This document shows positions 3,702 to 37,642 of a stretch of 64,000 nt of DNA, piece by piece. Each line of letters starts with the position of its first letter. Positions within the stretch are counted from its first letter, which is position 1. The DNA comes from Candidatus Hinthialibacter antarcticus (GTDB lineage: Bacteria > Hinthialibacterota > Hinthialibacteria > Hinthialibacterales > Hinthialibacteraceae): positions 62,001 to 126,000 of the forward strand of contig JAVCCE010000015.1 in NCBI GenBank assembly GCA_030765645.1. Direction: 5' to 3'. The position numbers and the translations under genes are program-made. The notes below the pieces were generated by a model. It saw only the letters and a list, made by a program, of their open reading frames with translations, had not been told where the DNA came from and did not search any database.

Positions 3702-3879
3702 TAGAGGGGGAAAAAAGTTAAAATTCCGAAACCATATCGAAACACAGCAACCTAGTTTCGGCTTGGGTGCAGTTCTGGGAGCGCCTGTGCAAAAGGGCCT
3801 GGAAGCCCGCACTGAAGCGAGCAGAGATGTACCCAAGCCTGATGCGATAAAAGTTGAGAGTGTTTGAGATGACTTCTAG
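3702..3879 (+). repeat. MITE-like structured repeat, copy 1
   Basis: The core runs from GGCTTGGGT (3760-3768) to ACCCAAGCC (3831-3839), an inverted pair. Inside lie GTGC-AAAA-GGGC-CTGGAA-GCCC-GCAC nested pairings. ATGACTTCT follows 29 nt after the core (3869-3877), and CTAG sits at the very end, directly against the pduO stop codon. A second copy in opposite orientation lies at 37459-37642. There the outer stem is GGCATGGGT/ACCCATGCC, a compensated change, and ATGACTTCT sits at the same 29-nt distance. The 5' end of copy 1 (TTAGAGGG around 3702) is a poor match to the TAGAAGCC end of copy 2, so that boundary is approximate. Confidence 0.75.
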
Positions 3880-4434
3880 TTAAATGGATGGAGTCCAGGT
3901 TACTTCAGGCGTCTCGTCAGCGGCGTTTTGATAGCGCGCCATCACAAAAAGTAGGTCAGAAAGCCGGTTTAGGTATTGCATCAATGTCTCGCTCACCGGT
4001 TCGCTATGCCGCAATGTAACCACCCGGCGCTCAGCGCGCCGACAAACAGAACGGGCAAGATGAAGATAAGAAGCCGCAACCGATCCGCCAGGCAAAACAA
4101 ACTGCCTCAGTGGCTCCAGATGAGTTTCAAAGCGGTCAATATACCCCTCCAACTCCACAACATGGGCGTCTTGAATCCGCGGCACGACCAGTTTGCTTTC
4201 TTCATTCGGAGGGCAGGCTAAATCCGCCCCTAAATCAAACAGCGCTGATTGAATTTTCGTAATCACAGGCCGCAACGCCTCAGCGGCCCCCTGCGCAATC
4301 GCCAGCCCCAATAGCGAATTTAACTCATCCACCTCGCCATACGCGTCTACGCGCAATGAGTCTTTTGCTACCCGGCGCCCCGTCACTAAACATGTCGCGC
4401 CGTCATCCCCTGTTTTTGTGTAAATCTTCACCAT
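3880..4434 (-). CDS. pduO: Cob(I)alamin adenosyltransferase, PduO type
   Basis: 184 residues, normal for the PduO-type ATP:corrinoid adenosyltransferase, which transfers adenosyl from ATP to cob(I)alamin to make coenzyme B12. Signatures seen: KIYTKTGDDGATCLVTGRRV (ATP-binding N-terminus), DAYGEVDELNSLLG, QSALFDLGADLACP, FVLPGGSVAASYLHLARSVC, RRAERRVVTL and YLNRLSDLLFVMARY. It is monocistronic on the minus strand. Its stop codon directly abuts the MITE-like repeat, so the repeat could affect its 3' end. No B12 synthesis genes or visible riboswitch are nearby. Only the choice of symbol among pduO/cobA2-type names is arbitrary. Confidence 0.93.
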   Translation of the reverse strand: MVKIYTKTGDDGATCLVTGRRVAKDSLRVDAYGEVDELNSLLGLAIAQGAAEALRPVITKIQSALFDLGADLACPPNEESKLVVPRIQDAHVVELEGYIDRFETHLEPLRQFVLPGGSVAASYLHLARSVCRRAERRVVTLRHSEPVSETLMQYLNRLSDLLFVMARYQNAADETPEVTWTPSI

Positions 4435-36063: not shown

Positions 36064-37449
36064 ATGAGCAATATCAAGCAATACTCAACCGTCGTTGATG
36101 ACCATTTTCCTAAATATTTTTTCTCGGGTTTTAGCGACGATCCAAACGCCATTGATACGCTTCGCGCCACGCAAGCGCAGGTCATGCTCTATGAAAAAGT
36201 GACCTGGACCTTGCCCGGCGACGGAGGCGAACCTATCGAAAAAGGATTGCGCTACGGCGAAAACCCCGGTCAGGAAGCCGCGCTCTATCGCCCACTCAAC
36301 GGGCACCTCATCCTTGCAGGCATCGAATTTTTGGGCGAAGGCGACGCGCTGGTCGGCGGGCTGAATACGGAATCGTTGATTCAATTCGGCAAACACCCCA
36401 GCAAAACCAATTTGACCGACATCGACAGCGCACTGGCGATTCTCAAACATTTTCATGAAGACCCCTGCGCCATCATCATCAAACACAACAATCCCAGCGG
36501 CGTCGCCTTGGGACGCTCGGTCTTGCAGGCCTATACCAAAGCGTGGGAAGCCGACCCCATCGCGCCCTTCGGCGGGGCGTTGGTGGTCAACCGCGCCCTC
36601 GACAAAGAAACCGCCGAAGCCATCGCGACCCAATACTACGAAGTGGTCTGCGCGCCGGAATACGAAGAAGGCGCCGTCGAAATTTTATCGAAACGCAAAA
36701 ACCTGCGTGTGATCCGCCTGAAAAATATCGAAAACCTGCGCGACTACTTAGGCAAGCGCTACATCGACTTCAAAGCGCTGTCAGACGGTTCGGTCTTGCC
36801 GCAGTGGTCGTACGTACCCACGGTCGGGTCTAACAATACGGTCGTGACTTCATATAAAGATTTCGCCGACAACATCGAAGTGCCCAAAAACCTGCCGTTG
36901 CGCGAGATGAAAGACGGCAGGTTGGTGAAGTCTGACAAGACTGTCAGCATCGAAACGGAACCCAGCGAAGGCTATTTGCGCGACATGTGGTTCGCTTGGA
37001 TGGTCGAAACCGGAGTTACGTCAAATTCCGTCCTGACTGCAAAAAATCTGGCGACCGTCTCCATCGGCGTCGGCGGACAAGACCGGGTATCTATGGCGAA
37101 GCAATGCGTCAGCAAAGCCTATGAGTCGCGCCGCGCGTTAATTTCGATACAAAAATACGGCATGAACTATGATCTGTTTAAAGTCGAAGTCGAAAAAGGC
37201 GAGCACCCGCAAACCACGCTACGCGAAATTGAAACCACCGCGCTCAGCGGAAACGCCGGGCTATTAAACGCAGTTGTCGCGTCAGACGCGTTCTTCCCGT
37301 TCCGTGACGGGGTCGATGTTCTATTGGACCAGGGCGTGAAGGCGATCGTGCAGCCGGGCGGTTCGTTGCGCGACGCCGATGCGGTGCAGGCATGTAACGA
37401 AGCCTGCGCGACCATGGTCTTCACCAACATGAGATGCTTTAAGCACTGA
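36064..37449 (+). CDS. AICAR transformylase-only protein (PurH C-terminal domain homologue)
   Basis: 461 residues matching the AICARFT half of PurH, which formylates AICAR with 10-formyl-tetrahydrofolate in purine synthesis. Motifs: LRYGENPGQEAALY, LGGLNTES-like VGGLNTESLIQF, AIIIKHNNPSGVALG (the catalytic Lys-His pair), ADPIAPFGGALVVNRALDKE, VLTAKNLATVSIGVGGQDRV and SDAFFPFRDGVDVLLDQGVK, with AIVQPGGSLRDADAVQ at the end. The N-terminal IMP cyclohydrolase (MGS-like) domain is absent, and the first ~50 residues are specific to this group. Cyclohydrolase must therefore come from another gene. AGGAG lies 7 bases before the ATG. The MITE-like repeat begins 10 bases after the stop. Confidence 0.88.
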   Translation: MSNIKQYSTVVDDHFPKYFFSGFSDDPNAIDTLRATQAQVMLYEKVTWTLPGDGGEPIEKGLRYGENPGQEAALYRPLNGHLILAGIEFLGEGDALVGGLNTESLIQFGKHPSKTNLTDIDSALAILKHFHEDPCAIIIKHNNPSGVALGRSVLQAYTKAWEADPIAPFGGALVVNRALDKETAEAIATQYYEVVCAPEYEEGAVEILSKRKNLRVIRLKNIENLRDYLGKRYIDFKALSDGSVLPQWSYVPTVGSNNTVVTSYKDFADNIEVPKNLPLREMKDGRLVKSDKTVSIETEPSEGYLRDMWFAWMVETGVTSNSVLTAKNLATVSIGVGGQDRVSMAKQCVSKAYESRRALISIQKYGMNYDLFKVEVEKGEHPQTTLREIETTALSGNAGLLNAVVASDAFFPFRDGVDVLLDQGVKAIVQPGGSLRDADAVQACNEACATMVFTNMRCFKH

Positions 37450-37458
37450 TTTTTTTTC

Positions 37459-37642
37459 AGAAGTCATGTCAATAATTATGTATTTACGTAGCGACTGGCA
37501 TGGGTATATCTCTGCTCGCTTCAGTGCGGGCTTCCAGGCCCTTTTGCACAGGCGCTCCCAGAGACACACCCATGCCAAAACTTGCTTGTCTATTTTGATT
37601 AGGCGCGATATCCTCTCGAATTGCTTTTGAAATGGCTTCTAG
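37459..37642 (-). repeat. MITE-like structured repeat, copy 2
   Basis: Opposite orientation to the copy at 3702-3879. Read on the minus strand: CTAGAAGCCATTTC (end 37642), then GGCATGGGT (37576-37568), the core with GGGAGCGCCTGTGC, AAAAGGGCCTGGAAGCCC and GCACTGAAGCGAGC, then ACCCATGCC (37505-37497), 29 bases, and ATGACTTCT (37467-37459). The ends form imperfect terminal inverted repeats (TAGAAGCCAT / ATGACTTCT). The outer stem differs from copy 1 by a paired change. The rest of the 314-base gap (37643-37763) shows no feature. Confidence 0.78.

Follow-up and report, generated by a model that had tools for sequence, protein, structure and literature searches.

Two places in a 64,000-nt stretch of the Candidatus Hinthialibacter antarcticus genome (the window, which is contig C15, positions 62001–126000, of the draft assembly G000) carry the same hairpin in opposite orientation. 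The question raised by this pair is what the fold is for: does it serve the movement of a transposable element, or does it belong to the transcripts of the neighbouring genes? A first-pass annotation, made from the sequence of the window, had described the two copies as a MITE whose structured core is under selection, and had proposed a mobile non-autonomous element or a repeat recognised by a transposase. Each hairpin is 80 nt long, with an outer stem of 18 bp below internal loops and an apical helix. Copy 1 occupies positions 3760–3839 (putative functional strand −), with its conserved 49-nt core (GGAGCGCCTG...GCAGAG) at 3778–3826 on the + strand, which is the search strand (G000:C15:65778-65826). 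Copy 2 occupies positions 37497–37576 (putative functional strand +), with the 49-nt core at 37510–37558 on the − strand (G000:C15:99510-99558). Both places and the opposite orientation were verified in the sequence, as was the exchange of the outer stem from GGCTTGGGT/ACCCAAGCC to GGCATGGGT/ACCCATGCC between the two copies. Compared with shuffled sequences, the fold of copy 1 has a stability z-score of −4.4 and that of the family consensus −8.8.

Both window copies are old, worn, non-autonomous MITEs of ~180 bp, with the terminal inverted repeat (TIR) TAGAAGCCATCTCAAAA and the hairpin inside. A worn TIR, TAGAAGTCATCTCAAAC, with 2 mismatches, is located at 3862–3878 (−) in copy 1. Copy 2 has a worn TIR on the gene side, CAGAAGTCATGTCAATA, at 37458–37474 (+), and a nearly intact one on the far side, TAGAAGCCATTTCAAAA, at 37625–37641 (−, 1 mismatch). 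No TIR is recognisable at 3702, where the left end of copy 1 had been placed. The motif ATGACTTCT had been reported at a fixed distance of 29 nt beyond the core and read as a special geometry. Exactly 29 differing bases do lie between the motif and the hairpin in both copies, but the motif is the worn right TIR (the consensus MITE ends in TTTTTGAGATGGCTTCTA), being included in the repeats at 3862–3878 (on the + strand) and 37458–37474 (on the − strand), and the spacing simply reflects how long the right arm of the TAGAAG element is. Genome-wide, the right TIR ends 52–53 nt beyond the 49-mer in 57 of the 68 copies with a detected right TIR.

The window copies have TAGAAG ends only, with no GGTTC (ISL3-type) ends, and represent what is termed type 2 here. 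The type 2 consensus, derived from 25 full-length copies, is 190 nt long with terminal inverted repeats TAGAAGCCATCTCAAAA...TTTTGAGATGGCTTCTA and a possible TA target duplication. The predicted TAGAAG-ended family is thus present in the genome, with 81 TIR matches at no more than 2 mismatches. A search for its mover, which had been suggested as a check, gave no match in the genome to the PF13358 (IS630/DDE_3) or PF01609 (DDE_Tnp_1) profile. One TAGAAG-ended element of ~165 bp (G000:C52:33281-33446) is without the hairpin core and has another sequence as its interior.

The same hairpin is also found in a second kind of MITE with unrelated ends. Type 1 elements have the terminal inverted repeats GGTTCATCCGG...CCGGAAGAACC, and the consensus sequences of their three subfamilies are 212–262 nt long. 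Their 8-bp target duplications are exact in 22 of 55 cases and have at most one mismatch in 37 of 55, against 0.8 expected from shuffling. The left end of type 1 matches that of an ISL3-family transposase gene resident in the genome: four matches to PF01610 (ISL3 transposase) were found, of which the ones on C37, C30 and C77 terminate in the sequence of the type 1 end. The ISL3 zinc ribbon had no match in the genome, and the ISL3 transposase gene was accordingly not obtained in full length. Like ISL3 insertion sequences, type 1 elements share ends with the resident gene and have 8-bp target duplications; unlike them, they are without transposase, and the interior consists of the hairpin and, in some copies, of leftover TAGAAG MITE sequence. 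A match to the TAGAAG right end persists in thirteen of the copies that have an ISL3 left end, which indicates that the ISL3 lineage was built upon an older TAGAAG MITE. Type 1 elements are ISL3-derived MITEs that are younger than type 2. Both types are short, transposase-free and present in many copies. Contigs C7, C16, C20, C69, C30, C37 and C77 start or end within type 1 MITEs or the ISL3 transposase gene; real copy numbers are thus probably above the count, and no intact ISL3 was read.

How widespread is the hairpin? The 49-nt core has 185 matches at up to 3 mismatches in the 5.15-Mb draft genome, and a reversed control pattern has none. Given this difference and a fold stabler than that of shuffled sequences, the family lies far beyond chance. 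More than 200 hairpin copies are present in the genome; 2.17 Mb of DNA around copies and TIRs was read, and 208 copies were classified. The family appears confined to this lineage. The core pattern was absent from 30 other genomes, and its strict form had no match in any other species of an 84,980-species collection; a relaxed pattern had 13 matches in that collection and 1 among viral contigs, none of which folds like the hairpin. Building covariance models had been proposed as a check, and two of them (R1 and R2) were run over 14 genomes of the phylum, 13 of them relatives, with matches in the own genome only. Phages yielded nothing in the hairpin scan and plasmids one weak partial match. 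Rfam gave no match at the gathering score in the window and none at E up to 10 for copy 1; at E up to 10, one free-standing locus had generic hairpin matches far under the gathering score.

Several arrangements of the repeats were noted in passing. Head-to-tail tandem elements with ~155–230 bp spacing occur in G000 at C74:115965, 116170 and 116375, C47:3327 and 3555, C70:33517 and 33740, C39:73699 and 73854, and C11:166743 and 166921. A tandem of TIR-less hairpins with a 135-bp unit follows a degenerate Y1 (RAYT-like) gene at L287:1435-2289 (G000:C1, near 146816-147600). Another abundant repeat, with ends CAATGNCATTGACTTAAG, has 62 end matches in the 2.17 Mb (e.g. L252, L214-L216, L256) and is inserted in the hairpin core at C28:13466, C65:25195, C40:39868, C11:221062 and C11:221245, in several cases at or beside CACTGAAGC, as if this were a favoured site.

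Besides the two MITE types, the hairpin exists alone. About 30 copies of a core variant, variant B (CTCT-GTGA-GCGCC...GAAGCGAAG-AGAG), are free-standing and without recognisable TIR (class 0); this number refers to copies read, and model R2 lists more places. Flank identity among the TIR-less copies is 25–27%, which is chance level. On the strand of the adjacent gene, the inner core reads CUCU-CUUC-GC-UUCR-GUGC-GGGC...GCCC-UUUU-GCAC-AGGC-GC-UCAC-AGAG and is almost invariant; the inner-loop positions are mostly invariant in 27 aligned variant-B copies. The basal stems of class 0 vary widely in sequence and keep their pairing. The proposal that the fold serves transposition found no support, the same hairpin being present in MITEs with unrelated ends and alone without TIRs.

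The suggestion of a MITE with a covarying structured core held up, and the covariation is far stronger genome-wide than in the two window copies. In type 2, 8 pairs covary and 26 cells are doubly changed with pairing kept (3.0 and 5.4 when shuffled). In the variant B alignment (27 copies, mostly class 0), the values are 14 pairs and 64 cells (8.3 and 21.0 when shuffled); cells and copies as counted here are not independent events. The 14 doubly changed pairs of variant B exceed every one of 500 shuffles, and the covariation score reaches 0.241, whereas shuffling gives 0.092 and slid structures do not exceed 0.078. Relatedness among copies is not removed by the shuffles and is retained in the slid structures, from which the signal is absent. 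Covariation thus lies above both the shuffled and the slid controls. Several single pairs of variant B pass through three or four Watson-Crick types, and in a few copies (C20, C43) the apical helix is swapped for a different, still pairing helix.

Divergence was compared between the parts of the elements. In type 2, departures from the consensus number 48 per kb in the core, 71–107 in the outer stem, 139–147 in the TIRs and 275–346 in the other flanks. Since these copies had initially been found via the core, divergence was retested on ISL3-type elements located through their TIRs only. Between young elements of this set, compared in 48 independent close pairs, the core differs at 32.5 positions per kb and the left flank at 69.0 (p = 5e-7), and the outer stem at 56–71, near the flank rate. 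Ascertainment bias is thereby rejected as the sole cause of the low core divergence, as the roughly twofold effect persists, and the inner core is constrained even in young copies. Free loss of stem pairing in other copies had been named as evidence against selection on the fold. This was seen in part: the outer stem of young ISL3-type elements drifts at about the flank rate, and their inner core is kept. One ISL3-type subfamily has a G-G mismatch in the hairpin. The stem is held over lineages and drifts in individual young copies.

The positions of the copies were then considered relative to genes, with neighbours taken from plain ORF calls. MITE copies are intergenic and enriched between convergent genes (p = 0.004), with no orientation preference (38 vs 37), a count on which the idea of MITE copies as oriented 3′-UTR elements was rejected. 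Variant B is placed differently: in 18 of 20 placed copies, a few of them with type 2 ends, the neighbouring gene has its 3′ end facing the hairpin, on the strand complementary to that folded in the first-pass annotation. The strand folded there is therefore apparently the non-functional one. The distance from stop codon to stem has a median of 33 nt in class 0 and variant B, for callable genes. Among TIR-less copies, a gene end lies within 50 nt 14 times on the putative functional side and 4 times on the other (p = 0.03). The genes in front of class-0 hairpins are functionally unrelated and include those for phenylalanyl-tRNA synthetase, PRA isomerase, a nucleotidyl transferase, an RsmD-like methylase and aminotransferases, among others. 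In most class-0 copies the stop codon is closer than the ~40 nt of a MITE right arm, which speaks against plain eroded MITE insertions. In the window, both hairpins lie downstream of stop codons on the putative functional strand: the foot of copy 1 is 40 nt past the TAA stop of the gene at 3880–4434 (−), and that of copy 2 is 47 nt past the TGA stop of the gene at 36064–37449, which is AICARFT/IMPCHase, purH-like. The ratio of G-U to A-C oppositions was also tried as a strand test. It favours the initially folded strand by 101 to 65 in a set dominated by MITEs and is about even in variant B; it does not settle the strand and was not used as evidence.

Taken with these positions and with the covariation, the hairpin is probably a new structured RNA element picked up and spread by mini-transposons. 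In its specific form, that of a lineage-specific 3′-UTR RNA hairpin which acts on the complement of the initially folded strand and which two MITE families captured and amplified, we consider this reading to be about an even call. The lack of orientation preference among MITE copies, the drifting outer stems of young ISL3-type copies and the G-G mismatch of one subfamily count against it. The hairpin would function at the RNA level within 3′ UTRs, near the end of the mRNA; a specific partner may bind or cut its conserved internal loops, and the hairpin may protect or define mRNA ends. The TAGAAG-ended MITE lineage would have taken the hairpin as cargo first and the ISL3-ended lineage later, and the MITEs would then have spread it to more than 200 sites, the cargo perhaps making insertions behind genes harmless or useful. 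The stronger proposition, of a new functional 3′-UTR RNA domain that is specific to this lineage, has a partner of its own and was acquired by MITEs with unrelated ends, which multiplied it across the genome, is possible but doubtful. Capture would have gone from free-standing to MITE. MITE cargo could instead have been domesticated behind genes, but most class-0 copies are closer to the stop codon than a right arm of ~40 nt permits.

An ordinary MITE family whose hairpin is inert, in which conservation reflects recent common sources and the free copies are truncated or eroded MITEs, would be in keeping with the typical MITE size, the copy number, the enrichment between convergent genes, the many copies in young subfamilies and the lack of orientation preference of the MITE copies. 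It is rather unlikely: the core diverges less than flanks and TIRs even in TIR-found elements, the stems are compensated, and the class-0 copies, whose flanks are unrelated, stand mostly in one orientation behind genes and are mostly closer to them than the length of the MITE arm. Paired substitutions could also arise without selection on a fold, as DNA inverted repeats are prone to template switching, here between the arms of an imperfect palindrome. This is very improbable, however, for it leaves both the conserved unpaired loops and the position behind genes unexplained, and template switching should correct a pair that is G-U on the initially folded strand, yet 150 of 189 distinct copies still have G-U there.

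REPs too sit behind genes, and the hairpin might be the present or past single-stranded DNA substrate of a Y1 (RAYT-like) transposase, only later picked up by MITEs. A look for RAYT proteins, suggested at the outset, did find three Y1_Tnp genes in the genome, but a single degenerate one lies near hairpins: the tandem TIR-less pair begins ~175 nt from it, which given the copy number is possibly chance, and no core is found at the remaining two Y1 loci. A DNA substrate would not predict the strand bias toward the neighbouring gene either. REPs are defined by a palindrome of 20–40 bp, one of whose ends carries a conserved GTAG or CGTC tag (PMC3733652), whereas the conserved part here is the inner core. 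No such tag was found, class-0 flanks being unrelated and the foot variable. This origin is accordingly judged improbable. Class 0 does resemble REP/REPIN in consisting of dispersed hairpins behind genes in a genome with Y1 transposase genes, and differs in hairpin length (~80 nt), in the conserved internal loops, in the variable foot and in having a single degenerate Y1 gene near copies. Having no end tag, the hairpin is not classed as a REP, nor as a known RNA family.

Compared with known hairpin-bearing MITEs, the elements resemble Correia/NEMIS (CREE) of Neisseria, which are MITE-size repeats with many intergenic copies whose transcript folds act on the adjacent mRNA via RNase III (PMC2229807, PMC2649163). 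In Correia/NEMIS the TIRs form the fold, whereas here a separate internal hairpin is shared by two MITEs with unrelated ends and by MITE-free copies. RUP, mobilised by IS630-Spn1, and BOX of pneumococcus are likewise short, mobilised in trans, over-represented between convergent genes and able to fold as RNA (PMC3049150, PMC2229807). The present MITEs share the shortness and the convergent-gene enrichment, and no sequence relation between RUP/BOX and the hairpin family was found; here the younger carrier is ISL3-ended, and what is conserved as a unit is an inner core on a basal stem that covaries. Transcript folding is common to Correia/NEMIS, RUP and BOX (PMC2229807, PMC3049150, PMC10969869) and is predicted likewise here. 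As MITEs, the elements are ordinary in size, number and target preference. What distinguishes them is a fold that is independent of the TIRs, common to MITEs with unrelated ends and also present outside MITEs.

The transcripts of bacterial MITEs usually fold via their own TIRs, and it is often hard to say whether such folds matter. In the present family, fold and transposon can be separated, which makes it testable whether the fold is selected to the benefit of the host, to that of the element, or is under no selection. If the favoured reading is true, this would be a genome in which mobile elements supply many genes with a ready-made RNA domain at their 3′ ends.
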